This document shows positions 4,705 to 23,201 of a DNA stretch of 64,000 bases, one piece after another. Under the pieces are notes generated by a model that worked only from the letters and a program-made list of their open reading frames with translations, was not told where the DNA came from and did not search any database. Every line of letters begins with the position of its first letter. Within the stretch, counting starts at the first letter, position 1. Position numbers and translations under genes: made by a program. Origin of the DNA: Demequinaceae bacterium (GTDB lineage Bacteria; Actinomycetota; Actinomycetes; Actinomycetales; Demequinaceae); assembly GCA_016933155.1 (NCBI GenBank), contig JAFGBM010000012.1:62001-126000 (forward strand), given 5' to 3'.

Positions 4705-5291
4705 CGGGCGCTCGCGATGTCGAGGGCAGCGCGCATCGGCCCGAGCACACCGAGGGCTTGCGCGTAGTCGAGGAGGAGTGCCGGACGGGCTCCCGGCGCG
4801 GCGAGGAAGCGGTGGAGGGCGGAGTGGGCGGCGGGTTCTCCGAACCGGTGCCGGAGCCGCATGAGGTCCACCACGGTGCGTGCGGCGTCGTACACCCGCA
4901 CAGACTCGCCTGGTGCCGCCTCGAGACCGGTCAGTCCCAACTCGAAGGTGTCAGCTCGGAATCGGTACACGGTCGTCAAAGGCCGGTCGATCGTCGGCTT
5001 GTAGGTGCCCATCGGCACCGCGATGTGAACCGATCCCAGCAACTCGTCCGTAAGGTCGTGGATCGCGGCGGCTGATAGGCAGCACAGTATGGCCCGCGGT
5101 GCTCGGTATGCCACGGCGAGGACGTCGGGGTACGACGCGGGTGGGGCATCACCGCGCCGGAACACACCACGGGAGATTTCGACGATCTGTCCGCTGTCGC
5201 GCCATGCGTAAAGGTCCCGCGGGTGCACTCCGAAACCGCGCGCGTCCTTTGTCGTGAAGGTTGGCGGCAAGACGGAAGTCGTGACAGGCAT
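4701..5291 (-). CDS. abiEi: AbiEi-type antitoxin / transcriptional autorepressor
   Basis: Antitoxin partner of the adjacent AbiEii-like toxin. From the ATG at 5291, with AGGA upstream, it is 196 residues. The N-terminal 60 residues form a winged-helix region (FTTKDARGFGVHPRDLYAWRD, then IVEISRGVFRR) as in the AbiEi_4 family; the rest is the C-terminal antitoxin domain (PRAILCCLSAAAIHDLTDELL, VPMGTYKPTIDRP). AbiEi proteins repress their own promoter, so the AT-rich stretch at 5291-5320 is the likely operator and promoter. The upstream in-frame extension to 5552 has no ribosome binding site and is rejected as the start. Confidence 0.85.
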   Translation of the reverse strand: MPVTTSVLPPTFTTKDARGFGVHPRDLYAWRDSGQIVEISRGVFRRGDAPPASYPDVLAVAYRAPRAILCCLSAAAIHDLTDELLGSVHIAVPMGTYKPTIDRPLTTVYRFRADTFELGLTGLEAAPGESVRVYDAARTVVDLMRLRHRFGEPAAHSALHRFLAAPGARPALLLDYAQALGVLGPMRAALDIASAR

Positions 5292-5527
5292 GGATATAAT
5301 CCTATCACTGTCATACCTTTCGTGAGTGGTTTTGATCCATTCGATGCCCGCCCCGTCTTGTGCGCCCGAGCCAGCCCTGAAGGCTCTGATGGCGAGACGA
5401 ACGGATTTCAGGCAAGCACGACGATTCTGATTCGACACGAACGGCGACGCGCGGCCGACGGACAGCCGGGTGGACGGGTTGCCGCACGGTTGGACCTGGG
5501 GACACCACAACCGCCTGGCGCGTGCAG

Positions 5528-5551
5528 TGGAGCGCGATGGTGCGCGCTCCA
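5528..5551 (-). terminator. Stem-loop after the pRiA4b-type gene
   Basis: A perfect 9-bp stem (TGGAGCGCG at 5528-5536 with CGCGCTCCA at 5543-5551, loop ATGGTG) lies about 20 bases past the stop of the gene at 5571-7088. Position fits a terminator for that gene. No clear U tract follows on the minus strand, so termination is inferred. The rest of 5292-5570 shows no gene. Confidence 0.4.
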
Positions 5552-5570
5552 TGGGCTGATCCGTCGCCCC

Positions 5571-7088: not shown

Positions 7089-7320
7089 GGCATTGACCTC
7101 CCGCAGTGCAGTCAGCCGCCGACGACCGGCCCGGCCGAATGCACACGACACTAGCAATCGACCGCGACGAGCGACCACAACCATCTGGTCCGGGACCATA
7201 TCCGCGCCTAGCCCCCCGGCGACTGTGAAGGTTCAAGATCTCATCGCGTTGTTCAACGCCCCACCAAAGAAGTAGCAGTGGAGAAAGGGGGCTGTTCTTA
7301 ATGTGCGCGGACGGAAATCC

Positions 7321-10300
7321 CTACTCCTCCTCGAATCCGTGATCCGAGAACTTCAGCGTTGTCGAGTTCTCGCGCACAGTGCGAATGGTCTCAGGCGTGA
7401 ATCCATCCGGGTTCCGCGCTGTGATCTCAACGCTGATCTCGAGTTCCGTGCCCTCTTGGGCTGCGAGACGCTCCAGCACCTCCTTCGTGATGTCACCAAA
7501 GTCGCGCGCGAATCGTTCGGGGTGGAGTGTCTTGGATCCGAAGTAACGGGTCTTGAGCGCAGGCTTTGATGGCTCTGGAGGAGTCGGGGCTATGGGTCCA
7601 GAACCCGATGAGGGTGACGGCTTGAGTCCAGGTGAAGCGTCGTGACCGGGAGGGGGAGTCTCCGCGGCTCGCTGTGCAAGGGCCAAGTCGGGTCGCACCA
7701 GTAGCCACGAGTCAGTGACACCCAGCGGCTCTTCGTCCATCGACGGAACACGGAGCCCAACGTAGCGGCCACCACCCTCGTCCCACCCCTCGGCGAGAGC
7801 GAAACCTTCCTTCTCCCACATGACGGTCCCGGACAGCCCGAACGCGTCCGTCACCGCGCGATCGAGCGTGGCGCGCCCAACCAGCCGGTCAAGGTAGGGG
7901 TACTGCGTGTACAGAGACCACAGCTCACCTACCGAGACGTGACCGCGTTTCCACAAGACCGCGAGGGGTCCGTCCAATGCCATCCGGATCCGGGCCGCCG
8001 AGTACACGGTCGAGAGCCGGTCACTCGTCCGGAGCTTCTTCGACACGCCAGTCCCGATCCCGGCCGTCGTGTCGGTCAGGCGTTCGGGAAGGATAGAAGC
8101 GGGCGCGGTGGGCGGGCTTTGGACGGGTACCAGAAGCCAGCAGAGCGCGCCGCGTAGACGGTCTACCACGGTCTGGTTCTCCTGCTTGAGTCGAGACGCC
8201 ACCTGCTCGGCCTGATTCGGCGGCAGGTTCAGAGACTTGTCCTCGGCGATCTCCTTCCAGGCCAGGTAGGAGCAGACGGCGCTTTCGACGTTGTCCACGT
8301 ACTGGGAGTCGTCGAACGCCGCGAAAGCCAGCATGTTGCCGTGCTTCCGGGCTCCGCTTCCGTGACGCTGGAACACCTCGAGGGCGAAGGCCATGGCCTC
8401 GGAGTCCTCGGCGCCCTTTCGATGCCTGAGACGTGGCGAGAGAAGCACGAGACGAGCGGTATCGACATCGGGCACGTCCCCGCTCGATTCGGGGGAGGGA
8501 TGAACCGCCGTGAAATCACCCCGATCGGAAGCAAGGGCGCGTAGCCGATCCTTGACCTCCTCCCACACCACCTCGGGAGACTCCCGTAGCCGATCGGCCC
8601 GATCTCGCGCACTCCGCCCGATCGAAGGAGAGGTGTCGAACCAATACCGGCCGTTGTCGGTGTAGATGTATGTAGCTCGCTGGGATAGAAGTTCTAGGGC
8701 CGAACCGAAGTTCCCCACGGTGTCGCCAGGGACCGCCACCCCCAGCCACAGGTACGGCCGCTCCACCCCCTTGTGCTCGGTCTTGACCGTAGGGGCGGTG
8801 TCGATGAAGACAGTCCGGGCGATGCGCCGGGTGAGGCTCCGTTTGCCGAAGACGGGACGCTCGTCATCGATCTTTCGGGGCGTGGCATCGTCACCGTCGA
8901 TGTCCCGGTCGATGATGGGCTTCCAGCTGTCCTCAAGGTAGTTGGTGAGTTCGCTGTGGGTCGCGTTCGAGAACAGCGGTACGGAACCGGGCATGATGAG
9001 CGGGCTTGGGTCCTGGTCGCGCCACAGCGTGTAGATGACCGTCGACATAAAGCGGAGCACCCCTCGCGTCCGTTGGAAGCGATCGAGAGTCGACCAGTCG
9101 GTGTAGAGACGGTCGAAGAGCTCGGGGTGGATGGGGTAGGCGGATTCGATTCGCTTCTGGTAGGCGGTGTCGTCGGTACCGCGGGGGAATTGCCCCTTGT
9201 TCTCTCGGTAGTAATCGACGAATGCCCGCGCTACGGCTCCGATGTCCCTCCTGGCCTCGGCTCCCGGCTCCTTGAAGAGGCGTCGCCTGACGATCTCGAA
9301 CGACTCCTCCTGGTTGGCGGGTTTCCAGTGGTCCGCCTTACGCCCCACGACGTTCTTGAGGGCCTCGAGCGCCTGGCGTCCTCGGGCTCCGCCTACCTCG
9401 ATGAGCGACCCCTCCTCCATCTTCGAGTTGCTGTCGGAGGCGGGGATGGAGATGATGAGCATCGCACCGGGGGTCGCGGAGACCGCCTCGGTCAGTTGCT
9501 GGGCGAAGGTGAATTGAGCCTCGAATCTGCCGCCCACGAGGGAGTCATCGTCATTGAGGTTCCTTGCGTAGGCGACCCACTCGTCGATGAGGATGAGGGC
9601 TGGGGAGTGGGCGGCGATGAGCTTGGTCATCGCGTCGCCGGGTGGGGTGCTGGTGCGGTCCGAGTCCGCGATGACGTCGTAGGCCGCGCGTCCCCCGAGT
9701 TGCCAGGCCAGTTCGCCCCACAGGGTGCGGACCTCGGTCCCATCGGATTTGTTGCGTGGCTGGTTCGCGCCCAGGTGGGTGCCGACTAGAGCCACCCGCC
9801 TTACCTTGAGGTCCTCGATCTTGACCTTTCCGACGACTTCCTGGACGGATTGGGGAAAGGCGCTCGCCTTGGTTCCGGAGAACAGGTGCCAGAGCGCGAG
9901 CATCGAGTGGGTCTTGCCTCCGCCGAAATTGGTTTGAAGGTTGACGACCGGGGAGGCGTTGCTGTCACCGGAAAGCCGACGCGTCGCCCGGTCTAGGAGG
10001 TCGCGGAGTCCCTCGGTGACATAGGTTCGGGCGAAGAACTTGATCGGGTCCGAATACTCGTCGTCTGTGGAGTCTCCGGAAGCCACCAGGTGCAAGTCAG
10101 CGGCAAACTCGGCTGCGTTGAAGTTGCCGCTCGCGACATCGTCATGGGGCTCGATGACCTCGCGCCACGATTTCAGACCCTTGCCGGGTGTGTCCGCTAC
10201 TCCCACGGCGGCCTGCTTGGTCTTGCGGGTACGGTCGTCAAAGGTGGTGCGCAGGTGGTCGTTGTAGGAGCGGTCGATCTCCTCGGCCTCGGACACCGCC

Positions 10301-10662
10301 CCGATGGCCCTCAGCAGCAGGCGAGCGGTATCGAGCGCCCGGGTGGTGTCGTCCGCCGTGAAGGTCTCGGTGTGTGCCCAGCGGTTCCGTATGTCGCGCA
10401 GTTCGGAGGCATAGTTCTGGTGGACTCGGTCGAGCGCGGGAAAGGCCCGCCACTCCTCGGTCAGGCATCGCAGCAGGATCTGCAGGTCGTTCTTCTTGTA
10501 TTGATGGGAGGTCCCGTGTCGCTGGTTGTCACGCGCCTGTAGCAGGGCGATCCAATCTTTACCAGGAGCGGCCGCGGACATCTTCTCGTCGACGTAGGGG
10601 AGTAGACCCGCCGCGATTATCTCAAGCGCTCGGCCGATGCGATCCCTGTTGTTGACGGCCAT
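7321..10662 (-). CDS. Swt1-type HEPN / DUF499 AAA-like ATPase (anti-phage associated)
   Basis: A 1113-residue protein. The N-terminus resembles the Swt1 HEPN domain and contains RNRWAH (R92-x4-H97), the Rx4-6H signature of HEPN ribonucleases. It is followed by a DUF499 ATPase: Walker A NFGGGKTH near residue 245 and a Walker B-like LILIDEWVAYA near 357. The C-terminus (LKTRYFGSKTLHPERFARDFGDI) is typical of DUF499. DUF499 proteins recur beside DUF1156 methyltransferases and large helicases in defence islands. The start has GGTGGAG upstream; the methyltransferase ends 33 bases before it, so the two are one operon. The mechanism is inferred: an ATP-driven sensor or motor with a possible RNase head. 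Confidence 0.85.
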   Translation of the reverse strand: MAVNNRDRIGRALEIIAAGLLPYVDEKMSAAAPGKDWIALLQARDNQRHGTSHQYKKNDLQILLRCLTEEWRAFPALDRVHQNYASELRDIRNRWAHTETFTADDTTRALDTARLLLRAIGAVSEAEEIDRSYNDHLRTTFDDRTRKTKQAAVGVADTPGKGLKSWREVIEPHDDVASGNFNAAEFAADLHLVASGDSTDDEYSDPIKFFARTYVTEGLRDLLDRATRRLSGDSNASPVVNLQTNFGGGKTHSMLALWHLFSGTKASAFPQSVQEVVGKVKIEDLKVRRVALVGTHLGANQPRNKSDGTEVRTLWGELAWQLGGRAAYDVIADSDRTSTPPGDAMTKLIAAHSPALILIDEWVAYARNLNDDDSLVGGRFEAQFTFAQQLTEAVSATPGAMLIISIPASDSNSKMEEGSLIEVGGARGRQALEALKNVVGRKADHWKPANQEESFEIVRRRLFKEPGAEARRDIGAVARAFVDYYRENKGQFPRGTDDTAYQKRIESAYPIHPELFDRLYTDWSTLDRFQRTRGVLRFMSTVIYTLWRDQDPSPLIMPGSVPLFSNATHSELTNYLEDSWKPIIDRDIDGDDATPRKIDDERPVFGKRSLTRRIARTVFIDTAPTVKTEHKGVERPYLWLGVAVPGDTVGNFGSALELLSQRATYIYTDNGRYWFDTSPSIGRSARDRADRLRESPEVVWEEVKDRLRALASDRGDFTAVHPSPESSGDVPDVDTARLVLLSPRLRHRKGAEDSEAMAFALEVFQRHGSGARKHGNMLAFAAFDDSQYVDNVESAVCSYLAWKEIAEDKSLNLPPNQAEQVASRLKQENQTVVDRLRGALCWLLVPVQSPPTAPASILPERLTDTTAGIGTGVSKKLRTSDRLSTVYSAARIRMALDGPLAVLWKRGHVSVGELWSLYTQYPYLDRLVGRATLDRAVTDAFGLSGTVMWEKEGFALAEGWDEGGGRYVGLRVPSMDEEPLGVTDSWLLVRPDLALAQRAAETPPPGHDASPGLKPSPSSGSGPIAPTPPEPSKPALKTRYFGSKTLHPERFARDFGDITKEVLERLAAQEGTELEISVEITARNPDGFTPETIRTVRENSTTLKFSDHGFEEE

Positions 10663-10695
10663 GCGGCTCCACCTCCATCGTTCGCCCGGCTAGCA

Positions 10696-13530
10696 CTACG
10701 ACTGGTCCAGTCTGTCCCATTCGAGGCCCGGTTGCGACTCCACGGGCCCGTGCCGCGCCACCTGGTCCGCACCAGCCGTGAGGTCGTGCCACGAGGTGGC
10801 GAGGGTGTTGAAGAGGATCGCGTCTTGCGCGCGTTCCTTCTCGGCGACTTTGTAGAGGCGGAGCGCCAGGGTCTGCACTTCGGCCCGGTCAATCACCCCT
10901 TGCGCCTTGGCCATGAGTGCGCTGGCGGCGTCCAAACCCAGGGAGTCGAGAAGCCGGATCAGGTGCATCGCTCCCTCCCACACGGATGTGTGCTTGTCGG
11001 TGGCTGGGTCCCAATCCGTGGGCATCAACCTGGGTTCGATCAGCTGCACCTTGCCAGCCTTGCTCGTGAGGACACCTCCGCGCGCGAGCCCTTCGACCGA
11101 AGTGTTCATGGCGCGGGCGAGCACGTCTGCTTGGCCGAAATCCTGGGCGGTCCACCCGTACTGCTCGTACCACTTGATGCAGAAGCGCGTGTCGCCGTCA
11201 AGGTTCGCGTCCTGTTCGGAGAGCACCTCGTCCAGTACCTGGTTGATGAGCGCGAGTGCGGTCTTGACGGTCATGGCCGCGCCGTCCGCCTCGACGACCT
11301 TGCTGTGGCGCGAGAAGATCGCCATACCCGGCCCGATGGTCGCCTGAGCAAGGTCAACGGCCGCGATCGCCCCCTGCTTCATTTCGGCAAGAGCATGAGG
11401 AAGGTCACGTTTCAGTTCCGCGATGAACGACCCCCTCGCGACGGCACCAGCCGTCGCCTCGCGCGGGCGGAGGGCGAGAACAATGGACGACGCGAGGGCG
11501 TTGGTTCCTGAGGCGATCATCCGGTTGCTCAGTTCGCTCCGCACCGGCCACGTCGCGGTGATGGCCCATCCCGAGCGGATCATTCCCTCAAGGAGCGTGG
11601 ACCACCCGGTCGAGGCGATGCCCTCGGCCTCGAGTTCAGCTTGCTTGAATGCGTAGTAGACGGTGATGGGGAAGTCATCGAGCGCGGTCTCCCGGGCACG
11701 CGCAAACACACGCTCGAATCCCTGCTCGAAGAACTTCGACGCGCCTTCCTTTCCGTCGTGGCGGTAGGGGTTCGCGACGAGTTCCTCCGCCTTCGGCACA
11801 AGGACGGTACTCAGGAGTTGCGGGTGGATGTCATGGATCGAGCGGCGGAGCCACACGTAGAAGAAGTCGGAGAGGTCTGAGTAACCAATGTTGTCGTAGT
11901 ACGGCGGGTCGGTCGAGAGGAGTGCGCCCCCAAACGAGCGCGTGGCCGCATCGGCCTGGGCGGCGTACGCAGTGATCTCTGCGCCGGGAAGAGCGTCGAG
12001 AACTCGCGTGACCCAACTGAGGTCTTCGACATAGCTGCCTGATGAACTCGCGAAAGGGTTGCTCTCCGCGTAGTCCCAGGTCATCGGGAGAGCCTGCCGA
12101 GCGAAGACGCCTCGCACCGCGTCCATCTTGGGGCTACTGTCCCAACTACATATGGATGATGCTTTGTTGGTAGTGCGGCTCAGGGCCATCGCGAGATAGG
12201 TGGCGACGGCGTCGGCATAGCCGGCGGCGTCGCTGCCGCCAGCTTCGAGGCGGTCACCCTTGGGTGCACCACCCGCAAGAGCATCCGCGAGCACCTGCGT
12301 CCGGGCTTCCATCACGAGGTCACTGAAAGTCGTGAGCGCTGTGAGCTGCCGGTTTGTGAAGGCATCGCTCCACCGAGGCATGCCATACATCGGCAAGCGG
12401 TCTACATCGTGGTTGGGGGTCGTGACGAGCTGATCTGGAGTATCGGCGGGCCGCTCGACCCGAAGTGCAGCGTCACGGTGAGCGGCATTGGGCTGAAGGT
12501 AGTCTCGTCGAGCAGTGCCTTCCGCGACGACTGTCATCAACTGGATGCCCAGCCCACTTCCGGTTGCCTGGCTACGAATGGCATCGTTTGTTGCCACAGA
12601 CCCGCACGCGAGGCACCTGCCCTTGCCGTGATCCATGGTCCCGCCCGCATCGTCCGTTGGCGCCCCGGCCGCATCGTGCCCGATGCTGAACTCGACACGT
12701 CGTCCGCCGCGAGCGCTGGCATCGTCCACAACCGTCGGGATCACGTACGCAGGGCGGTTCTTCTTCTTGCTCAGCCACCACGAGCGCACGAGCGGCATCT
12801 CAATGCCGCACGCCGGGTTGGGGCACGTGACCGTGCGGGCCCAGATCCATGCGATGACCGTCGCCTGCGACCCGTCGGCGAGTGTCGCCTTGGGGTAAAG
12901 GTGGCCGATGCGTTCCTCGGCACGGTCGCGCATCCACACGCCGTAGCGGCGGACGTCCTCGGCGAGGCCGGTCGCGCGCGGCCAGGCGCCCATCTTGGTC
13001 GCGGCCGCACCGGGGAACACCGGCGGGCGGCCCGCGAACTTGGGCGGGATCTCGATGAGCGCCTTGTTGATGAGCACCGCGACCGGGTTGAGGTCGCTCG
13101 CGTGGGCCTCGAGTCCGAGGCGCTGCGCTTCGAGCGGGATGGTGCCGCCGCCCGCGAACGGGTCGAGGATGGCGGGCGGGTGGCCTCCCGTGGAGTTCAG
13201 GATCTCCTGGTGCGCCTGCTTGAACAGGGCGGTGTCGTTGATGTTCTCCCACACCACGAGCTTGCGGATGATGTCGTGGAGGCGTTCACGTTCCTTCGCC
13301 TGATCCTCCTCGGTGGGGAAGCGGTCCGGGTGCGATGAGGGGTCGTCGACGAGCTGGGCGAAGAGGACAGCGCGGGCGGCGGCGAGGGGTCGTCGGGCCC
13401 ACCAGAGGTGCAAGGTGGACGGGTGGCCGTGGCGGATGGACTTCTCGCGCGCGGACTCGCGGTTGATGTCCTCGAGCGGGAGGGAGACCTCGATGAGTTT
13501 GCGCTTCAGAGCGGGGTCCATGCCCCCCAT
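10696..13530 (-). CDS. DUF1156 DNA methyltransferase (anti-phage associated)
   Basis: A 944-residue amino-methyltransferase. The DUF1156 N-terminus is unmistakable (KLIEVSLPLEDINRESAREK, then HGHPSTLHLWWARRPLAAAR). The SAM-binding motif I, DPFAGGGT, is at residues 123-130 and the catalytic DPPYYDNIGY near 539, so motif I precedes the DPPY. A zinc-ribbon-like insertion has CPNPACG near 236 and CLACG near 308. It probably methylates host DNA (N6-adenine or N4-cytosine) to mark self. ATG 13530 is given; ATG 13521 is an alternative with a better-spaced AGGA. It lies upstream of the DUF499 gene in one operon. No classical restriction endonuclease is adjacent. Confidence 0.9.
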   Translation of the reverse strand: MGGMDPALKRKLIEVSLPLEDINRESAREKSIRHGHPSTLHLWWARRPLAAARAVLFAQLVDDPSSHPDRFPTEEDQAKERERLHDIIRKLVVWENINDTALFKQAHQEILNSTGGHPPAILDPFAGGGTIPLEAQRLGLEAHASDLNPVAVLINKALIEIPPKFAGRPPVFPGAAATKMGAWPRATGLAEDVRRYGVWMRDRAEERIGHLYPKATLADGSQATVIAWIWARTVTCPNPACGIEMPLVRSWWLSKKKNRPAYVIPTVVDDASARGGRRVEFSIGHDAAGAPTDDAGGTMDHGKGRCLACGSVATNDAIRSQATGSGLGIQLMTVVAEGTARRDYLQPNAAHRDAALRVERPADTPDQLVTTPNHDVDRLPMYGMPRWSDAFTNRQLTALTTFSDLVMEARTQVLADALAGGAPKGDRLEAGGSDAAGYADAVATYLAMALSRTTNKASSICSWDSSPKMDAVRGVFARQALPMTWDYAESNPFASSSGSYVEDLSWVTRVLDALPGAEITAYAAQADAATRSFGGALLSTDPPYYDNIGYSDLSDFFYVWLRRSIHDIHPQLLSTVLVPKAEELVANPYRHDGKEGASKFFEQGFERVFARARETALDDFPITVYYAFKQAELEAEGIASTGWSTLLEGMIRSGWAITATWPVRSELSNRMIASGTNALASSIVLALRPREATAGAVARGSFIAELKRDLPHALAEMKQGAIAAVDLAQATIGPGMAIFSRHSKVVEADGAAMTVKTALALINQVLDEVLSEQDANLDGDTRFCIKWYEQYGWTAQDFGQADVLARAMNTSVEGLARGGVLTSKAGKVQLIEPRLMPTDWDPATDKHTSVWEGAMHLIRLLDSLGLDAASALMAKAQGVIDRAEVQTLALRLYKVAEKERAQDAILFNTLATSWHDLTAGADQVARHGPVESQPGLEWDRLDQS

Positions 13531-13607
13531 CCTATTGACCGCCCCGACAGGATGCTCGGCATGCGAGCGTCACCGACAACAACCAGCGGAGTGTCGGAGG
13601 GTGGCAC

Positions 13608-13613
13608 TAGCAT
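13608..13613 (+). promoter_or_regulatory. -10 element of a probable leaderless TAC transcript
   Basis: TAGCAT ends six bases before the ATG at 13620, so transcription would start at or next to the start codon. No Shine-Dalgarno sequence is spaced correctly. No convincing -35 is visible. The same TANNNT-N6/7-start layout occurs before several other genes here. Confidence 0.45.
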
Positions 13614-13619
13614 CCGGAC

Positions 13620-14081
13620 ATGACCATCTCGCGCTGCTGTCGGCCGCAGAACAGTCCGTACTTCTGGTACGACTTCATCGACACGGCCAACAAGTCGGTC
13701 GTACGCTTCAACGAATGGCTTGAAGGATTGCCGATCGCGTCCCGCCAAGACGTTGTGGGCATGATTCAGGTTCAAGAGGATCGGGCAACGAAGGGGCGCC
13801 TCCCCAAGGGCGCTCCATACCAGATTGAACCGGTGCACACCTACGAGCACATGTTCGAGATGAAGTGGGAAGTCACCGAACCGGGCACTCGAAGGGTCCG
13901 CTTGATCAGGCAGTACCACGCCGAACCCGAGGCGGAGAAGAAAGCCCTCGTACGCCTGCACCGCCACCTCAAGCGGGTTGATGATCGAGAGACGATTTGG
14001 GCTTGGCAACAGGATGAAATCAAGTTCGCCAAGATGCGCTTCGATGCCTGGCCAGGAGTCGGATCCACCACCTTGCGGTAA
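13620..14081 (+). CDS. HigB/RelE-like toxin of a TAC module
   Basis: A 153-residue protein I assign as the toxin of a toxin-antitoxin-chaperone system. It has a RelE/HigB-like pattern: VVRFNEWLEGLP (helix), YEHMFEMKWEV and RRVRLIRQY (strands), then a basic helix ending WQQDEIKFAKMRFDAW, resembling mycobacterial HigB1 in order and spacing. HigB toxins are ribosome-dependent or free mRNA endonucleases. The assignment rests mainly on context: an XRE antitoxin and a SecB-like protein follow on the same strand. It is divergent from the DUF1156 methyltransferase (89 bases between starts). Similarity to HigB is weak by eye, so the fold is not certain. Confidence 0.65.
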   Translation: MTISRCCRPQNSPYFWYDFIDTANKSVVRFNEWLEGLPIASRQDVVGMIQVQEDRATKGRLPKGAPYQIEPVHTYEHMFEMKWEVTEPGTRRVRLIRQYHAEPEAEKKALVRLHRHLKRVDDRETIWAWQQDEIKFAKMRFDAWPGVGSTTLR

Positions 14082-14083
14082 CG

Positions 14084-14105
14084 AATACAACCTAGAAGTT
14101 GTATT
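14084..14105. promoter_or_regulatory. Perfect inverted repeat upstream of higA: likely HigA operator
   Basis: AATACAAC (14084-14091) and GTTGTATT (14098-14105) form a perfect 8-bp inverted repeat with a 6-base spacer, three bases after the toxin stop and 28 bases before the antitoxin ATG. The AT-rich symmetric half-sites suit an XRE dimer. This suggests that the antitoxin and chaperone have their own autoregulated promoter inside the module. A weak terminator is the alternative reading. Confidence 0.6.
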
Positions 14106-14133
14106 GTAGGTACTCAGCGATTAGGGAGACGTC

Positions 14134-14520
14134 ATGGACGCGAAGTGCCAACAATGGCGTGCAACTGCACTTGCAGGCAACGACCTCGATATGCGGATCA
14201 AGCTCATCGAAATCAGGCGCGCCAACAACATCACCCAAGAGGATGTCGCCAAAGCGCTAGGGATCTCCCAGCAGGCCGTCTCGGCATTCGAACGCCTTGA
14301 GTCTGATCCGCGGCTCTCGACGATTCGTCAATACGCCAACGCCATCGGCGCCATGGTTCGACATGATGTCCGAGCTGATGGGGATCGTGATGACGACCTC
14401 GAGTGGTTCGACTTCAACCATGACATCGACGTTTCGGTGACACTCCCGGCAACCGGCCAGAGCGTCATCTCTCGCGAGGCGGTGACCGGCGCGAAGAACG
14501 ACTTCGCCCTGACATCGTGA
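14134..14520 (+). CDS. XRE-family antitoxin (HigA-like) of the TAC module
   Basis: A 128-residue DNA-binding antitoxin. Residues ~21-73 form a helix-turn-helix (IRRANNITQEDVAKALGISQ, QAVSAFERLESDPRLSTI). A ~50-residue tail follows (WFDFNHDIDVSVTLPATGQ...), which fits a chaperone-addiction segment as in mycobacterial HigA1. The ATG has GGGAG upstream. The stop overlaps the SecB-like gene start (GTGA), so antitoxin and chaperone are translationally coupled. It probably binds the 14084-14105 palindrome and represses the module. Confidence 0.8.
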   Translation: MDAKCQQWRATALAGNDLDMRIKLIEIRRANNITQEDVAKALGISQQAVSAFERLESDPRLSTIRQYANAIGAMVRHDVRADGDRDDDLEWFDFNHDIDVSVTLPATGQSVISREAVTGAKNDFALTS

Positions 14521-14999
14521 CCACCGCGAAAGGCATCGCAGACGCGAAGGCGCTTCTGGGTATCTGCGAACTCACGGGAATACGGTTCTGGGAGGAGTCT
14601 GTGCGTCGTCAGGCCACCGAGACTCCGGCCGACCCGACCGCGTCTTCCGACGCGCATGAAGCCGGGATCCGCATCAGCACGAAGATCGGTGCGAACGAGA
14701 CTGAACTCCACTTTCGATTTCGGCTCAACCTCGATGACGTTGACGCCAAGTACGTGTGTGATATCGAGACGATCTTCGCTCTTACCGAGCATTCAACCTC
14801 GGAGGTCACCGAAGAGGTACGCCGCGAGTTCGCCGAAAAGGTGGCGTTCATGGTCGCCTTCTCGCACATGCGGGCGTCAATTCTCGGCTCGGCTGGACGC
14901 CTGGGCATTGGGCAGCCGGTGCTCCCACTCATGCGCCTTGGGGAGTTCAGTATCGGGAGTCCCGTCACTCCCGAGAATGCCGAGACGGACTACTCCTAG
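14517..14999 (+). CDS. SecB-like chaperone of the TAC module
   Basis: A 160-residue SecB-fold protein. The strands alternate as in SecB (ISTKIGANETELHFRFRLNL, YVCDIETIFALTEH), then come two C-terminal helices containing FMVAFSHMRASILGSAGRLGIGQPVLPLMR, comparable to the SecB/Rv1957 block (YIREYVYDLTGRLALPPL). An actinobacterial SecB beside a HigBA-like pair is a hallmark of TAC systems, where the chaperone protects the antitoxin from aggregation and degradation. The GTG start overlaps the antitoxin stop. It converges on the helicase gene 56 bases later. Some TAC modules are anti-phage; that role here is inferred from the location. Confidence 0.75.
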   Translation: MTTAKGIADAKALLGICELTGIRFWEESVRRQATETPADPTASSDAHEAGIRISTKIGANETELHFRFRLNLDDVDAKYVCDIETIFALTEHSTSEVTEEVRREFAEKVAFMVAFSHMRASILGSAGRLGIGQPVLPLMRLGEFSIGSPVTPENAETDYS

Positions 15000-15055
15000 T
15001 AAGGGGGCCTCCCTAGTGGGAGAGACGAGGGGCTCGTGAGGAAAATGAGGGACGG

Positions 15056-18000
15056 CTAGAAGGGCAATGCTGCGGCGTCCCACAACGCCTTCCACCCGTA
15101 GGTGACGCGCGTGACCGTCGGGTCATCCATGGGCGTCGCGTCGAAGGGACGGGTGACGTAGCGCACCGCGTCCAGGTGGGGGCTATCCGGGTGGACGCTC
15201 ACGAGGGCGAGCCGGTAGTTATCCGCCGCGTTCTTCCCGAGGAGGACTTCGCTCTTGGTGACTGTCACCTCAGTTGCCCCCGCCAGGCGGCCCTTGACCT
15301 CGATGAAAATGGTAGGGCCGTCGGGCACCGAAGACTGGATGTCATACCCCTTGTTGGTGCGACGCATCTCAGTCGGGACGCGATCCAAGGCGCGTTCCGC
15401 GGCTAGCGTGGCATCCACGGCTCGGCGCTCGACCTCCTCCGTTTCCCGGGCATGCTCCGGAGGAAGCGCGACCTCGTCGGGCGGAAGGACCAAGGCCACG
15501 CCTGCGACGGTGGCGGGCAAGGCCGTGAGGCGCTCGGAAGCCTCGATCTGCTTGAGCCGCCGGTCCAGTCGCCCTTCGAGATCCCGCGACTTCTCCTCGG
15601 CGTACTCGGGGGAATAGCGCACACGAACCCCCCGCCTGCGCTTATCGAGAGCTTCGAGGCGATAGCTGTCCCAGTACTTCATCTCCTTGTTGAGGCGTCT
15701 AGAGACGAGCTCCCGGGTTTTGTCCGCCACAGCCGTCATCCGTCGTTCGACAGCATCGAGGTGAAGAGGAATCGAATGCTGGGCCGCCCACGCCCGAGCT
15801 GTAGCCTCCGGGCCCGCTACAAGCCAATCTTGTTGGGCGATTTCGCGGCCGCGAGTGGTCACGGCCTCAGAGGGCACGTCGAGGTCGAGGTAGGGCGTGG
15901 ATCCCGCGGATGTGGCCTCTCCGGAGGGATGGATATCCATGAATGAGAAGGCGCGGGAGATCGTATGCGGTTGAGGGGTGCTTCCGTCGCGGATTTCCTC
16001 GGTGAGCGCGACGAACAGGCGTGGCTCGCTACTATCGGGATCCGCCCAGATCGTTCCCCGGCGGAGGGTGTCGCCATACTTCTCCGTGATCATCGACCCC
16101 ACGGTGTCCAGCAAGGGATGGCCGGGGGCGAGCAGATCCGCCCGTGGGGGTCCCTCCACCTTGTCGAGGTCGAAGGTCACACGCTCGTAGTGGCTGATGA
16201 GGGGGGTGCGGGTGGGGGTGCGGCGGGATGCGTCGATCAATGCCGCCGGTACGCGGGTGATTTCGAAGCGCCTGGATTCCCGCTCGACCATGCGACCGCC
16301 GAGGTCCTCGAAAGCCGTCCGGAAGAAGGCTTGGATGTGGTGTGGCTGGAGGCGCCTCGCCTGAGCCTCGTCCATCTCCCTGCGAACCTTCTCCACATCC
16401 TCCGCTGGCATGTCGATGGAGTTGAGGGAGTTTTCCTTGATGAGTTCGGGGATGCCGAGACTGACCGCGGCGTCGATGACCATCTCCAGCCGGGCCCTGA
16501 CCTCGGGCTGATCGCCATACCGGATAGCCTCCATCATCAGCTTCTCCAAAGGTCGACCCTCGAAGGCGTTCCCGATGACATCGAAGACCTTTCCGCCGTA
16601 GGCCTCACGTTGGATGGCGATCTTCTCCAGGAGGGTCTGGTAGACCTGACCTTCGCGAGTCTCCGCGGCGACAAGGTTCCAGAGGTGACACACCTCCGTC
16701 TGACCGATGCGGTGGATGCGACCGAATCGTTGTTCGATCCGGTTGGGGTTCCAGGGCAGGTCGTAGTTGACCATAAGGTGCGCGCGCTGAAGGTTGATGC
16801 CCTCGCCAGCCGCGTCCGTCGCCACGAGGATCCGAACCTTTGGATCCTTCGAGAATGACTCCCGGATGGATCGTCGATCCTCCCTGCGCGTGCCGCCATG
16901 GATCGTCACAACCGCGTCGCCTCGGCCGAGGAAGTCGCCGATGCGTTTGACGAGGTAAGTGAGGGTGTCGCGGTGCTCGGTGAACACGATGAGCTTGTCC
17001 ACGTTAGGAGAGTCCGGCGCCGAAGCCACTTTGTCGCCCAAGATGGCGCTCAGCTGTTGCCACTTCGCGTCCGTTCCAGCGTGATAGACCCGCCTGGCGA
17101 GTTCGACCAAGCGCTCAAGACTGCTGATCTCGATGGCGAGTTCTTCGGCGGTCATGGCAGCGGTCGCCGAATCCATGATCTCTTCCTCGAGGACCTCCAC
17201 CTCGTCGCTCGTGAAGTCCTCCATTGCCTCATAGAAGGCACTCGGATCCATTGCGCTATCCAAGGACCGGATCTCATCCTCCATCCAGGACTCCAACACG
17301 GAACCCTGGGCGACCTTGCGCATCTTGTCGCGCTGGGACTCCAGGCGTGCCTTGCGACGCTCAAGGCTACGGAGAATGGCCTCCGGGCTAGATGCCAAAC
17401 GGCGCTGAAGGACGGTGAGGGCAAATCCCACCCTGTTGCCCCGTCGTCCCTCTCCCGCGTCCTTGAGCCGGTCGGCGCGGTTCATCTCGTCGCGCACGTA
17501 GGCGGAGACCTGCTCATAGAGGTCTCGCTCCGCGGGCGAGAGCATGTAGTTGGCCGTGTAGGCGAAACGCTCCGGAAAGAGGCGCTTGCCCTCCATGGTC
17601 AGGAGGTCCTCCTTGATCATCCGGCGCATGATGTCTCGAGCGTCGTCGCGGGCGGCCTTTGGATCATGGTGGCCCTCGAACCGATCGGGGTCGAGGAGGG
17701 AGAGAAAGAGCTGGTACGCCTGATCGTCGCCTGCGTGCGGGGTGGCGGTCATGAGCAAGAAGTGACGGGTGTTGGTGCTGAGGATCTGGCCGAGTTGGTA
17801 CCGGAGCGTGGTCTTGAGTTCGTTGCCGTAGTAGTTGGCGGACATACGGTGCGCTTCGTCGACGACGATGACGTCCCACTCAACCTGCTCCAGGAGGGGG
17901 TGAAGGTCGTCGCGTCGTGCGAGGTGGTCCATACGGGCAATGAGGTAGGGATGCTGATCGAAGACGTTGCCACCGGTGGCGTTCTCGATGAGGTCGTTGC

Positions 18001-18748
18001 TGAGTAGGTCGAAGTGGAGGCCGAACTTCTCGCGGAGTTCATCCTGCCACTGCTCGACGAGGCTCCCCGGGGGAACGATGAGGCAGCGGTCCAGGTCGCC
18101 CCGGAGCAGGAGCTCTTTGAGGTAGAGGCCAGCCATGATCGTCTTGCCGGCGCCGGGGTCGTCCGCGAGGAGGTAGCGGAGTGGGGTGCGCTGGAGCAGT
18201 TCGCCATACACGGCGCGGATCTGGTGCGGGAGGGGGTCGATCTGGCTGGTAGTGACGGCAAGCATGGGGTCGTAGAGCGCGGCGTTCTTAATCCGGAGGG
18301 CCTCCGCGGCGAGGCGCCAGGCGTGCGGGTCAGCGTCGAAGGTGGCCTGGCCGTTGCCGCCCGCGCCCGTGTGTTGGCGAAGACTGGCCTCGTCCTTGCG
18401 GAAAAGGAGGGCCTCGCCGGTCTTTCCCTCCGAATCCCGGTAAACGACGTTGACGACGTCAGCGCCGTGGCGTTCGATAGCGACGACCGTCACCACACCG
18501 GGGAGGCTGGGAGCGCTGACTCGTTGGCCCGGGGCGAGCGCTGCGAAAGCGTCCGGCTGCGGGGTCTCGAATTCGCTCACAGGCTCGATCCCCTCCTTCG
18601 GCGGGTAGCAAGTCGCCGCCTGCACCGAACCTATCGCACCGAGTAGGCGGGTGCCCTGAGAAATGGCAGGAAACCCTGTGCCGCCTTCTAGTAAGACGTC
18701 GGTCCCCGCCCACCCGTCGGCCGTCCTGACAATCCTGAGCGTCGTCAT
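15056..18748 (-). CDS. SNF2-family helicase with C-terminal DUF3883 (anti-phage associated)
   Basis: A 1230-residue superfamily 2 helicase/translocase. Motif I LLADDPGAGKT lies near residue 196, DEAH (VVDEAHRMS) near 299, and motif VI (QRFGRIHRIGQ) near 673. The C-terminus has a DUF3883 domain (KGYDIQSS...IFIEVKGRL near 1130-1160), a PD-(D/E)xK-like fold whose E-V-K looks nuclease-like. It is read in the same direction as the methyltransferase and DUF499 genes, but the TAC module separates them. The first ~70 residues look foreign to the family; the recognisable part begins near FAALAPGQRV. The reading frame stays open upstream to 18881 without a start codon, so the N-terminus is uncertain. 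Confidence 0.88.
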   Translation of the reverse strand: MTTLRIVRTADGWAGTDVLLEGGTGFPAISQGTRLLGAIGSVQAATCYPPKEGIEPVSEFETPQPDAFAALAPGQRVSAPSLPGVVTVVAIERHGADVVNVVYRDSEGKTGEALLFRKDEASLRQHTGAGGNGQATFDADPHAWRLAAEALRIKNAALYDPMLAVTTSQIDPLPHQIRAVYGELLQRTPLRYLLADDPGAGKTIMAGLYLKELLLRGDLDRCLIVPPGSLVEQWQDELREKFGLHFDLLSNDLIENATGGNVFDQHPYLIARMDHLARRDDLHPLLEQVEWDVIVVDEAHRMSANYYGNELKTTLRYQLGQILSTNTRHFLLMTATPHAGDDQAYQLFLSLLDPDRFEGHHDPKAARDDARDIMRRMIKEDLLTMEGKRLFPERFAYTANYMLSPAERDLYEQVSAYVRDEMNRADRLKDAGEGRRGNRVGFALTVLQRRLASSPEAILRSLERRKARLESQRDKMRKVAQGSVLESWMEDEIRSLDSAMDPSAFYEAMEDFTSDEVEVLEEEIMDSATAAMTAEELAIEISSLERLVELARRVYHAGTDAKWQQLSAILGDKVASAPDSPNVDKLIVFTEHRDTLTYLVKRIGDFLGRGDAVVTIHGGTRREDRRSIRESFSKDPKVRILVATDAAGEGINLQRAHLMVNYDLPWNPNRIEQRFGRIHRIGQTEVCHLWNLVAAETREGQVYQTLLEKIAIQREAYGGKVFDVIGNAFEGRPLEKLMMEAIRYGDQPEVRARLEMVIDAAVSLGIPELIKENSLNSIDMPAEDVEKVRREMDEAQARRLQPHHIQAFFRTAFEDLGGRMVERESRRFEITRVPAALIDASRRTPTRTPLISHYERVTFDLDKVEGPPRADLLAPGHPLLDTVGSMITEKYGDTLRRGTIWADPDSSEPRLFVALTEEIRDGSTPQPHTISRAFSFMDIHPSGEATSAGSTPYLDLDVPSEAVTTRGREIAQQDWLVAGPEATARAWAAQHSIPLHLDAVERRMTAVADKTRELVSRRLNKEMKYWDSYRLEALDKRRRGVRVRYSPEYAEEKSRDLEGRLDRRLKQIEASERLTALPATVAGVALVLPPDEVALPPEHARETEEVERRAVDATLAAERALDRVPTEMRRTNKGYDIQSSVPDGPTIFIEVKGRLAGATEVTVTKSEVLLGKNAADNYRLALVSVHPDSPHLDAVRYVTRPFDATPMDDPTVTRVTYGWKALWDAAALPF

Positions 18749-19819: not shown

Positions 19820-20629
19820 ATGAGCCCTCTCGCCCTCGCCCTGTGGATCTCGGTCGCCGTGACCGCCGGATGCTGGCTGGCCTCCGTCCTGACCCGCGAG
19901 TACTCCTGGACGGACCGCGTCTGGTCCATCGCCCCCGTCGTCTACGCGTGGGTGTTGGCCGGGGGTGCCGATGACGGGGCCGGCGCCCGTGCGACCCTCG
20001 TCGCCGTCCTCGTCACCCTCTGGGGCGCACGCCTGACGTTCAACTTCGCCCGCAAGGGCGGCTACGCCCCCGGAGGAGAGGACTACCGCTGGGGGATCCT
20101 GCGCGGCCTCCTGCCCGGGTGGCGGTTCGCCGCGTTCAACCTCCTCTTCATCGCGGCCTACCAGAACGCCCTCCTGCTCCTTGTGACGCTGCCCGTGTGG
20201 ACCGTCGCCCAGAACCCCGGGGGGCTCGGGGCGGCCGACGCCGTTCTGGCCGTCCTCTTCGTGGGGTTTCTGGTTGGGGAGACGGTTGCGGACCAGCAGC
20301 GCTGGGACTTCCACCGGGGGCGCGAGGGTGGGGCGTCTGGGATAGGCGGCGGTGCTCGGAAGGGTGGCGTCCTCCGGACCGGCCTGTTCCGCTACAGCCG
20401 ACACCCCAACTACTTTTTCGAGATCGCGCAGTGGTGGGTGGTGTTCGCCTTCGCGGCCCTCGCCGCCGGCACCCCCTGGCTCCCGACCGCGGCCGGAGCC
20501 ATCCTCCTCACGCTCCTGTTCGTCGGCTCGACCCTGTTCACCGAGTGGATCTCCATGCGGCGCCACCCCGAGTACGCCGACTACCGTCGCACCACCTCGA
20601 TGCTCATCCCCTGGCGGCCTTCCCGCTGA
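19820..20629 (+). CDS. DUF1295 / steroid 5-alpha-reductase-like membrane protein
   Basis: A 269-residue integral membrane protein with about seven hydrophobic segments. The C-terminal half carries the DUF1295 signature: GLFRYSRHPNYFFEIAQWW and RRHPEYADYRRTTSMLIPW. The family resembles steroid 5-alpha reductases and isoprenylcysteine methyltransferases; the substrate is unknown. ATG 19820 follows TAGGGT by seven bases with only a weak ribosome site, so a leaderless transcript is possible. Its last ~69 bases are duplicated after the first and second NYN genes, meaning the NYN duplication unit was cut out from inside this gene's 3' end. Confidence 0.85.
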   Translation: MSPLALALWISVAVTAGCWLASVLTREYSWTDRVWSIAPVVYAWVLAGGADDGAGARATLVAVLVTLWGARLTFNFARKGGYAPGGEDYRWGILRGLLPGWRFAAFNLLFIAAYQNALLLLVTLPVWTVAQNPGGLGAADAVLAVLFVGFLVGETVADQQRWDFHRGREGGASGIGGGARKGGVLRTGLFRYSRHPNYFFEIAQWWVVFAFAALAAGTPWLPTAAGAILLTLLFVGSTLFTEWISMRRHPEYADYRRTTSMLIPWRPSR

Positions 20630-20719
20630 CCCCCGCCCTCCCGCCTGCCACTGATGTCCCCAAGGCCTGACCCTAAGTGTCGTCTCCACCGCCTCGTCGT
20701 CGGTCATCGTTACCGCCCA

Positions 20720-20746
20720 TTGCTCCCTCCAGGCTGGTGTTATGAT
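20720..20746 (+). promoter_or_regulatory. Promoter of NYN gene 1
   Basis: TTGCTC (20720-20725) and TATGAT (20741-20746), 15 bases apart. The same pair recurs at the same place in the other two units, while flanking bases vary. The predicted start point near 20753 puts the hairpin at the very 5' end of the transcript. Confidence 0.6.
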
Positions 20747-20759
20747 GAATCCACTAGTC

Positions 20760-20790
20760 CCCGCCATGCGAGTTCGCTCGCATCGGCGGG
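20760..20790 (+). promoter_or_regulatory. UUCG-tetraloop leader hairpin of NYN gene 1
   Basis: CCCGCC-ATGCGAG, loop TTCG, CTCGCAT-C-GGCGGG: a 13-bp stem with one bulge, followed by ATTATTCTTT. It lies between promoter and start codon, 21 bases before the ATG. It looks like an intrinsic terminator or attenuator placed in the leader, or a cleavage or binding target of the encoded RNase. Confidence 0.65.
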
Positions 20791-20811
20791 ATTATTCTTT
20801 CCAGGCCTAGC

Positions 20812-21429
20812 ATGCCTGATCGTGTCATGGTCTTCCTCGACTACCAGAACGTCTACTGGTCCGCCCGTGCGGCATTCCATGGGACGAGGCCTTCACCAGG
20901 AAGATACGGCGACGTCGACCCCGCGAAGCTGGGTGCCATCCTGAACGACATGGGTCCGGGCGCTCGCACCCTCGCCGGAGTGAGGATCTACCGCGGAAGG
21001 CCCTCGCCCAAGCTGGATCCAAGAAGCCACCGCACCTGGCAACGTCAGGCGGCGGCATGGCAAGCTTCCGGAGCAACGGTTGTGACCCAAGCCATCTGGT
21101 ACCCCGTCGGCTGGCCAAACGTCGACGCCGGGCAGCGACCCAAGGAGAAGGGCATCGACGTAGCCCTCGCCGTCGACCTCGTCGACCTCGCCCATCGACG
21201 GGAGTACGACATCGCGATCGTCTTCTCCCTCGATGCCGACCTGATCCCTGCCCTCGAACGGGTCCAGACCATTGGACTTGGGAAGGGTCGGCCGCGGATC
21301 GAAGTCGCGGCATGGTCAGGAGGAACGACGGACACCCACCGTCTCAGGACCTCTCGCAACACCTGGTGCCACTGGCTGAACGAGACGGTGTACAGGCAGG
21401 TCCAGGACCTCACCGACTACACGCGGTAG
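20812..21429 (+). CDS. NYN-domain (PIN-like) ribonuclease-type protein 1
   Basis: A 205-residue NYN-domain protein, a PIN-like fold of metal-dependent RNases. Acidic positions are intact: VFLDYQNVYW (first Asp with the family Asn), EKGIDVALAVDLV (middle Asp), and IVFSLDADLIPAL (S-x-D-x-D). No extra RNA-binding domain is attached. The ATG has no good ribosome binding site, and a strong hairpin precedes it. It is one of three paralogues in tandem; the C-terminal ~100 residues are nearly identical to copy 2. The target RNA is unknown; self-regulation through the leader hairpin is a testable inference. Confidence 0.8.
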   Translation: MPDRVMVFLDYQNVYWSARAAFHGTRPSPGRYGDVDPAKLGAILNDMGPGARTLAGVRIYRGRPSPKLDPRSHRTWQRQAAAWQASGATVVTQAIWYPVGWPNVDAGQRPKEKGIDVALAVDLVDLAHRREYDIAIVFSLDADLIPALERVQTIGLGKGRPRIEVAAWSGGTTDTHRLRTSRNTWCHWLNETVYRQVQDLTDYTR

Positions 21430-21607
21430 CGCGGCCACGACGGCGCCACCCCGAGTACGCCGACTACCGTCGCACCACCTCGATGCTCATCCCCTGGCGC
21501 CCCTCCCGCTGACCTCAAACGCTCCCCACCGCTTACCACTGATGTCCCAAGCGCCTTACCTGAAGCATCGTCTCCACAGCCTGATCGTCGGTCATCGCTA
21601 AACCCGA

Positions 21608-21634
21608 TTGCCCCCTCCAGGCTGATGCTATGAT
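21608..21634 (+). promoter_or_regulatory. Promoter of NYN gene 2
   Basis: TTGCCC (21608-21613) and TATGAT (21629-21634), spacing 15, in the same position relative to the hairpin and gene as in unit 1. Confidence 0.6.
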
Positions 21635-21647
21635 GAACCCAATAGTC

Positions 21648-21678
21648 CCCGCCATGCGAGTTCGCTCGCATCGGCGGG
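21648..21678 (+). promoter_or_regulatory. UUCG-tetraloop leader hairpin of NYN gene 2
   Basis: The stem and TTCG loop are identical to unit 1, followed by ATTATTCATTTC. It lies 21 bases before the GTG start. Sequence outside the hairpin has begun to diverge. Confidence 0.65.
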
Positions 21679-21699
21679 ATTATTCATTTCGGGCCTTGC

Positions 21700-22317
21700 G
21701 TGCCTGACCGCATCGTGGTCTTTCTCGACTACATGAACATCTACTGGTCGGCCCGCTCGTCGTTCCACCTGGCATCGCCCGCACCTCGAAGATTCGGCGG
21801 TATCGACCCCGCGAAGCTGGGTGCCATCCTGACCGACATGGGTCCGAAAGCTCGCACTCTCGCCGAGGTGAGGGTCTATCGCGGGATGCCCTCTCCCACG
21901 TTGGACCCCAGAAGCCATCGGGCTTGGCAACGCCAGGTGGCGTCATGGCGGGCTTCCGGGGTGAAGGTTGTGACCCAAGCCATCTGGTACCCCGTCGACT
22001 GGCCGAACGTCGATGTTGAGCAACGCCCCAAGGAAAAGGGCATCGACGTGGCCCTCGCCGTCGACCTCGTCGACCTCGCTCACCGCAGGGAGTACGACAT
22101 CGCGATCGTCTTCTCCCTCGATGCCGACCTGATCCCTGCCCTCGAACGGGTCCAGACCATTGGACTTGGGACGGGTCGGCCGCGGATCGAAGTCACCGCG
22201 TGGTCACCGGGAACGACGGACACCCACCGTCTCAGGACCTCTCGCAACACGTGGTGCCACTGGCTGGACGAGGCGGTGTACAGGCAGGTCCAGGACCTCA
22301 CCGACTACTCGCGGTAG
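21700..22317 (+). CDS. NYN-domain (PIN-like) ribonuclease-type protein 2
   Basis: A 205-residue paralogue of the gene at 20812, with the same acidic motifs (VFLDYMNIYW, EKGIDVALAVDLV, FSLDADLIPAL). The GTG start aligns with the ATG of copy 1. The C-terminal half is almost identical to copy 1, whereas residues ~20-45 differ more (SSFHLASPAPRRFGGID against AAFHGTRPSPGRYGDVD). This indicates recent duplication or local gene conversion of the 3' half with faster change in the N-terminal segment, a pattern that could reflect target specificity. It has its own promoter and hairpin. Confidence 0.8.
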   Translation: MPDRIVVFLDYMNIYWSARSSFHLASPAPRRFGGIDPAKLGAILTDMGPKARTLAEVRVYRGMPSPTLDPRSHRAWQRQVASWRASGVKVVTQAIWYPVDWPNVDVEQRPKEKGIDVALAVDLVDLAHRREYDIAIVFSLDADLIPALERVQTIGLGTGRPRIEVTAWSPGTTDTHRLRTSRNTWCHWLDEAVYRQVQDLTDYSR

Positions 22318-22490
22318 CGCGCGGAATGCGCCGCCACCCCGAGTACGCCGACTACCGTCGCACAACCTCGATGCTCATCCCCTGGCGGCCTTCCCGCTGA
22401 CCCCCGCCCTCCCGCCAGCGACTGATGTCCCCAAGGCCTGACCCTAAGTGTCGTTTCCACCGCCTCATCGTCGGTCACCGCTACGCCCCA

Positions 22491-22518
22491 TTGGCCCCGC
22501 CAGGCTGGGTGATATGAT
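22491..22518 (+). promoter_or_regulatory. Promoter of NYN gene 3
   Basis: TTGGCC (22491-22496) and TATGAT (22513-22518), spacing 16. The -10 hexamer is unchanged in all three units. Confidence 0.6.
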
Positions 22519-22530
22519 GAATCCGCTACT

Positions 22531-22563
22531 CCCCGCCGTCCGGGTTCGCCCGCACTGGCGGGG
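22531..22563 (+). promoter_or_regulatory. UUCG-tetraloop leader hairpin of NYN gene 3, diverged stem
   Basis: Outer stem CCCCGCC (22531-22537) with GGCGGGG (22557-22563); inner stem CGGG-TTCG-CCCG; a small internal loop separates them. TTTATCTTTTT follows, a good terminator tail. The inner stem sequence differs from units 1 and 2 while pairing and the TTCG loop are kept, so the structure appears to be under selection. Confidence 0.65.
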
Positions 22564-22580
22564 TTTATCTTTTTCTCAAG

Positions 22581-23201
22581 ATGCCTGACCGCGTCGTCGT
22601 CTTCATCGACTATGAGAACGTCTACTGGGGAGCGCGCGAGGCATTTCACCCTGGTGCTCAGGTGTCGGGCCGAATGGGCCACATCGATCCAGTACGGCTT
22701 GCCAAGGTGATCGTCGGGAAATCGCTTACGCTCCGGCACCTCGAAGCCACGCGAATCTACCGGGGTATGCCTTCTCCTTCCCTAGACCCGCGGGGGTATC
22801 GAGCCTGGCGGGCTCGGACTGCGAGGTGGGAGAAGTCGGAAGCCACGGTCGTCGCGCGCATGCTCCGGTATCCATCCATCTGGCCGAACCCTGCCCCTGG
22901 CAAACGCCCGCACGAAAAGGGAATCGACGTGGCGCTGGCCTTGGATGTAATCGACCATGCTCATCGCGGCGCCTACGACGTGGCGATCATCGTCTCGACG
23001 GACACGGACCTCCTGCCGACCATCGAGATGCTCCAGCGCATGAGGGCCACCACCGGCAAGCCAAGGGTCGAGGTCGCGGCCTGGGACGCAGCCGTCGGCT
23101 ATTCCCCGCGCCTCAGGATTCCCGGCTCCAATGTCTGGTGTCACTGGCTCCACGAAGCCGACTACCGCCAGGTCCAGGACCTCACCGACTACACGCGGTG
23201 A
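22581..23201 (+). CDS. NYN-domain (PIN-like) ribonuclease-type protein 3
   Basis: A 206-residue NYN paralogue, more diverged than copies 1 and 2. It retains VFIDYENVYW, EKGIDVALALDVI and IIVSTDTDLLPTI, so the acidic metal site is intact. The start ATG is close after the U-rich tail of its leader hairpin. Its C-terminal RQVQDLTDYTR is shared with copy 1. The 3' end overlaps the convergent membrane-protein gene by 13 bases. Having three intact, separately promoted copies argues against simple decay. Confidence 0.8.
   Translation: MPDRVVVFIDYENVYWGAREAFHPGAQVSGRMGHIDPVRLAKVIVGKSLTLRHLEATRIYRGMPSPSLDPRGYRAWRARTARWEKSEATVVARMLRYPSIWPNPAPGKRPHEKGIDVALALDVIDHAHRGAYDVAIIVSTDTDLLPTIEMLQRMRATTGKPRVEVAAWDAAVGYSPRLRIPGSNVWCHWLHEADYRQVQDLTDYTR

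Follow-up and report, generated by a model that had tools for sequence, protein, structure and literature searches.

Three NYN-domain genes that lie head to tail on a contig of a Demequinaceae bacterium are each preceded by a short hairpin with its own promoter, and the explanation that we consider probable, on comparative grounds, is that hairpin and gene form a pair of RNA antitoxin and RNase toxin, which would resemble type III toxin-antitoxin (TA) systems but differ from them in toxin fold and in having an RNA of one hairpin, and which would be imitated by phages. The broader claim, that this is an undescribed class of RNA-neutralised toxin, in which an NYN RNase is held off by a single bulged hairpin that is also its own terminator, is widespread in Actinomycetota and Chloroflexota and has been repeatedly countered by hairpin-only phage mimics, seems to us about evenly balanced. 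Comparison of sequences brings out the association of the hairpin with NYN genes, its covarying structure and fixed promoter, free-standing and 3′ hairpins, hairpins beside dead NYN genes, and phage copies with no NYN gene.

The unit would be a two-part conflict module made of a hairpin RNA of ~40–50 nt and an NYN-fold RNase. Transcription would start ~6 nt before the hairpin and, if termination is as efficient as we suppose, would mostly end at the T-rich tail, yielding abundant hairpin RNA, while occasional read-through would give the NYN mRNA. The hairpin RNA would then bind the NYN protein directly, in trans, and keep the putative RNase off; loss of the short RNA, as might follow the shutdown of host transcription by a phage, would free the RNase, and its toxicity would stop growth, a presumed anti-phage role to which hairpin-only phage copies would respond as decoys.

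The array and its proteins

The window analysed is a stretch of 64,000 nt, and the three genes in it (Table 1) all match PF01936, the NYN family, with E values of 1e-12 to 7e-12 and lengths of 205–206 codons. The original prediction described each gene as lying behind a common TATGAT −10 box, a 5′-proximal hairpin, a U-rich tail and a poor ribosome site, and this is what all three units contain: every box follows a TGn, a T-rich tail, best developed in unit 3, stands behind each hairpin, and none of the three NYN starts has a clear Shine-Dalgarno sequence before it. Promoter spacing puts the predicted transcription starts ~6 nt before the hairpins, and that of unit 1 falls exactly where a 5′ end had been expected. 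The hairpins have folding energies of about −25 kcal/mol each, with z scores of −4.1, −2.6 and −4.4 for units 1, 2 and 3, nearly all shuffles being worse. It had also been noticed that the stem of unit 3 is altered while its pairing and a better T run are kept, which is correct save for one C·C mismatch. As for the UUCG loop on which the prediction laid weight, it is indeed present in the window, but there a G-C pair closes it, unlike in the extra-stable C(UUCG)G, and loops vary among family copies, so that UUCG was rejected as the key feature.

Table 1. Features of the array and of the nearby defence operon in the window
Feature	Position	Strand	Basis and remarks
Hma-type defence operon, complete	7321-18748 (HmaC 7321-10662, HmaB 10696-13530, HmaA 15056-18748)	-	about 2 kb from the array
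Extended -10 promoter TGT-TATGAT, unit 1	20738..20746	+	TATGAT box 20741; spacing equals logo of 87 family hairpins
Predicted hairpin RNA, unit 1	20753..20790	+	start A20753, stem 20760-20790, bulged C20784; 38.2 bits
T-rich tail, terminator-like, unit 1	20791..20802	+	sequence
NYN RNase gene (predicted), unit 1, 205 aa	20812..21429	+	PF01936 E 1e-12; AlphaFold2 pLDDT 94.9, NYN fold
Duplicated 3′ end of DUF1295 gene	21441..21514	+	97% identical to native copy 20558-20631
Extended -10 promoter TGC-TATGAT, unit 2	21626..21634	+	TATGAT box 21629
Predicted hairpin RNA, unit 2	21641..21678	+	start A21641, stem 21648-21678; 37.0 bits
NYN RNase gene (predicted), unit 2, GTG start, 205 aa	21700..22317	+	PF01936; 83% identical to unit 1
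Second duplicated 3′ end of DUF1295 gene	22329..22402	+	97% identical
Extended -10 promoter TGA-TATGAT, unit 3	22510..22518	+	TATGAT box 22513
Predicted hairpin RNA, unit 3	22525..22563	+	start G22525, stem 22531-22563, bulged T22556; 43.5 bits
T-rich tail (TTTATCTTTTT), unit 3	22564..22574	+	sequence
NYN RNase gene (predicted), unit 3, 206 aa	22581..23201	+	PF01936; 54% identical to unit 1

The array consists of tandem units of 888 and 884 nt, and with every added unit comes a copy of the final ~74 nt of the upstream DUF1295 gene; because the units are tandem copies that include this end, the resemblance of unit 2 to unit 1 does not count as independent evidence. Between these two, Ka is 0.096 and Ks 0.33, which suggests that both proteins are still selected. 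The three copies of the DUF1295 end are 97% identical while the NYN genes have diverged more, suggesting gene conversion or selection on the copies. The idea that the hairpin is purely an artefact of duplication was rejected, since the element belongs to the NYN family across phyla, as seen on a tree of 95 proteins. About 2 kb from the array stands the Hma defence system, and farther along, on the reverse strand (4701-5552 and 5571-7199), an AbiEi-like antitoxin gene (E 2e-83) lies beside a 542-aa open reading frame with no PADLOC match.

AlphaFold2 models the unit 1 protein with an NYN/PIN-like fold, and the nearest solved folds are the LabA-like protein VPA0982 (2qip, Z 16) and the NYN domain of MARF1 (Z 13); we know of no cognate hairpin gene for LabA-like NYN proteins or for MARF1. 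Matching PF01936 above the cut-off, the protein also has the conserved acidic active site of the family: D10, N13, D116, D141 and D143 are invariant among 54 aligned proteins, a pattern to be expected of an active NYN nuclease. PADLOC gave a weak match to the NYN core only (HEC-09). RNase activity is suggested by the fold and by analogy with the CRISPR-associated NYN protein of Bacteroides fragilis, for which Mn2+-dependent cleavage of single-stranded RNA has been shown and crRNA trimming proposed (PMC11346440).

A covarying hairpin that accompanies NYN genes

A covariance model was built from 20 hairpins and applied to 80 loci that had been chosen, out of 84,980 species genomes, solely for the similarity of their NYN proteins, and which come from Actinomycetota, Chloroflexota, Dormiibacterota and one alphaproteobacterium. 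A match is present in each of the 80 (E <= 0.5, most far below), and the hairpin adjoins 64 of the 65 intact NYN genes: for 59 of them the 400 nt on the 5′ side contain between one and three copies, five have a copy on the 3′ side only, and the last (L093 in our numbering of loci) has none on its strand, in a genome where another NYN locus has two. The original prediction had proposed looking for the hairpin upstream of other NYN genes, and the absence that would have spoken against it is not what was found. Within the host genome the model finds exactly four hairpins for four NYN genes, one on the 5′ side of each; the fourth gene lies on another contig, is 31–36% identical and has the same kind of hairpin. 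Of 396 genomes of the host order, 18 have this NYN gene and 16 of these have the hairpin, as against 9 of the other 378 (odds ratio 328, p 2e-20); the nine comprise three with a cut or degraded NYN gene or a contig edge, five orphans and one that is plain-terminator-like.

The association is not absolute. The family is patchily spread, with relatives on plasmids, and besides L093 an active-looking NYN gene stands with no recognised hairpin in L022 and in the plasmid genes L190 and L199; intact genes with no hairpin in their own genome or plasmid (the latter three) are rare but real, and a strict rule that every NYN gene has a hairpin was rejected on their account. Most of the few hairpin-less members of the 95-protein tree fall inside hairpin-bearing groups, so that the hairpin appears ancestral and occasionally lost. 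Weak model matches that do not have the bulged U (L141, L144, L146–L148, L280, L283 and L286) were set aside as ordinary terminators. On two Rhodococcus plasmids (L194 and L198), a distant hairpin-less NYN gene overlaps by 4 nt a second small gene, whose product may be a protein that takes the place of the RNA as partner.

The stem covaries strongly. When 66 diverse copies were aligned by sequence, 94.3% of stem cells were paired, a figure that falls to ~54% when the partner is slid by one column, and two-sided changes numbered 108 cells versus 29.9 in shuffles. What is conserved is a lower stem (CCCCGYC/GGCGGGG) whose letters hardly vary and, after it, a bulged U (replaced by C in units 1 and 2), beyond which the upper stem and loop are variable; this is the pattern expected if the lower stem and bulge are read by a protein. 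Promoter distance is also fixed: three elements keep constant spacing among 87 copies, namely a TTG near −33, an extended −10 (TGn TAnnnT) and an A where transcription is expected to start. No Rfam family was matched above its gathering score by the hairpins of the window, those of relatives or those of five diverse loci, and a literature search, with most subscription journals outside its scope, returned neither the letters of the hairpin nor a link between NYN and type III systems. Taken together, the family association, the covarying stem and the fixed promoter give strong comparative support to the idea of an RNase with a cognate RNA element that could release a short structured RNA.

Hairpins apart from the gene

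Several arrangements separate the hairpin from the leader of an NYN mRNA. In four Acidimicrobiia loci (L080, L088, L089 and L091), two or three hairpin units ~115 nt apart precede one NYN gene, and in L080 and L088 each unit has its own −10-like box, with only the last unit standing directly before the gene. Four species of Herbidospora have 5′ hairpins that decayed in differing ways and have kept a copy 3′ of the NYN gene, near-identical in three species and re-paired with other letters in L045; a fifth species keeps both. Because it faces a convergent hydrolase gene, this 3′ hairpin leads no gene, and the Herbidospora NYN genes are under purifying selection (Ka/Ks 0.07–0.23). A 3′ hairpin is also present in L079 and G175. 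It is important to stress that the Herbidospora and tandem-hairpin cases represent few lineages.

Hairpins are also kept beside NYN genes that break off some twelve codons in or carry internal deletions (L182, L180, L184 and L186), and there are orphans with no NYN gene nearby (L181, L183, L185, L188 and L189); several of the hairpins beside dead or absent genes retain a −10-like box. Loss of the gene with retention of the hairpin is partly expected, because the gene is the larger mutation target, and some of the frame breaks may be assembly errors. Two of the orphans, L188 (genome G219) and L189 (G073), lie ~270–300 nt 5′ of tRNA genes, and several NYN loci are also near tRNAs, which are possibly integration sites.

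Separate units, 3′ copies and orphans argue against a purely cis-acting leader, and so bear on cis autoregulation, in which the hairpin would be an attenuator or a site of NYN cleavage in its own mRNA leader, such that the RNase limits its own expression. The usual place of the hairpin between promoter and start codon, and its terminator-like tail, are what such a mechanism would look like, and stem-loop control is known for the PIN-like RNase Regnase-1. However, cis autoregulation does not predict units with their own promoters, relocation to the 3′ side with loss of the 5′ copy, orphans, or phage hairpins with no NYN gene, and we regard it as unlikely, without being far-fetched, as the main explanation; it may coexist with the RNA antitoxin. 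The attenuator of the original prediction thus finds no support as the main function, given the own-promoter units, 3′ copies, gene-less copies and phages, but since the hairpin resembles a terminator, some attenuation may come about as a secondary effect.

Phage copies and known systems

A strict pattern of the hairpin occurs in 50 IMG/VR stretches that form 13 clusters with unrelated flanks (at least 13 lineages), and no NYN gene was found in their fetched flanks. Most of the clusters examined have terminase, portal, major head/capsid, DNA polymerase, DnaB or integrase genes nearby. When two permuted hairpins of matched composition and shape were sought in the same collection, they gave 0 and 0 matches. 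Among cultured phages, the hairpin lies between genes or at their edge in the Gordonia phages Holliday, Birdsong and GAL1 and the Microbacterium phage Footloose, as it does in one mycobacterial prophage, and a profile search of 18 phage records with the hairpin (five of them complete cultured or prophage genomes, and no positive control among the records) found no NYN gene. Relaxed patterns recover more phage copies, in which upper stems have changed yet remain paired, mixed with plain terminators that have no bulge. Other viral contigs hold an NYN gene together with the hairpin: a search of viral contigs with a single window protein found nothing, and one with the 54-protein alignment found 22 contigs. 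The Acidimicrobiia subtype of the hairpin was not found in viral contigs, nor the window's own subtype in cultured phages.

One way to read the hairpin RNA is as a required cofactor, guide or sensor, the NYN protein being active when loaded with it and, for example, trimming or recognising phage RNA. The conserved sequence and bulge suggest protein binding, and the proposed crRNA trimming by the CRISPR-associated NYN protein (PMC11346440) would be a parallel, but a cofactor leaves unexplained why phages maintain hairpins and why hairpins occur with no NYN gene, and some NYN genes have no hairpin; we think it rather doubtful. The phage hairpins could instead be triggers or mere terminators, which the bacterial hairpin would resemble as a decoy or regulator. 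The family promoter is retained in a minority of phage copies and most of them end a phage gene, in the position of a 3′ terminator, so that a terminator role in the phage is possible, and some relaxed-pattern matches with no bulge do look like plain terminators. Selection, however, would remove a trigger, which does not fit the presence of the hairpin in 13 unrelated lineages, and mere terminators are at odds with the absence of composition-matched permuted hairpins, which together make this reading improbable. That the hairpins are ordinary intrinsic terminators duplicated with the gene, with no special function, agrees with the tandem origin of the three window copies but is contradicted by cross-phylum conservation and covariation, fixed promoter distance and near-exclusive association, and is very improbable indeed.

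For an RNA antitoxin imitated by phages, the closest relatives among known systems are the type III TA systems (ToxIN, CptIN and TenpIN), where a small structured RNA gene and a terminator stand directly 5′ of an RNase gene under one promoter, and which by published criteria have a toxin of the ToxN fold and, ahead of the terminator, an array of tandem RNA repeats (PMC5086642). A predicted terminator, hairpin plus T-rich tail, is what precedes the NYN gene in the case of 59 of the 65 intact genes. The fold here, however, is NYN/PIN-like and not the Kid/MazF-like one of ToxN, and where type III systems have tandem pseudoknotted repeats and a separate terminator, the NYN module usually has one hairpin that is itself the terminator, with two or three units in few loci; because the ToxN fold and the tandem RNA array are both lacking, the module is not a member of type III. 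Phage mimicry by pseudo-ToxI has been proven for type III TA and is a direct precedent for the phage hairpins (PMC3475682). AbiF, a HEPN-type toxin neutralised by RNA, likewise has a conserved non-coding RNA motif, RCd22, adjoining the accessory toxin gene, which acts in cis and in trans (PMC12373285); both the protein fold and the RNA differ from ours, in which the scans matched no Rfam motif. The B. fragilis CRISPR-associated NYN protein shares the domain family, but crRNA trimming is proposed for it, and the abstract of that study does not mention a linked hairpin (PMC11346440).

If the RNA-antitoxin reading is true, RNA-based TA and abortive-infection systems would gain a new toxin fold and a minimal antitoxin made of one hairpin, and the phage copies would be a ready set of natural counter-defence RNAs; since some of these are in cultured actinobacterial phages, the idea of an arms race is directly testable. 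Many genes whose annotation says no more than "NYN domain-containing protein" would also acquire a cognate RNA. One phage contig (L243, IMG/VR 2795385734) carries two hairpins that differ from each other and lie back to back, with a HicB-like antitoxin gene nearby.
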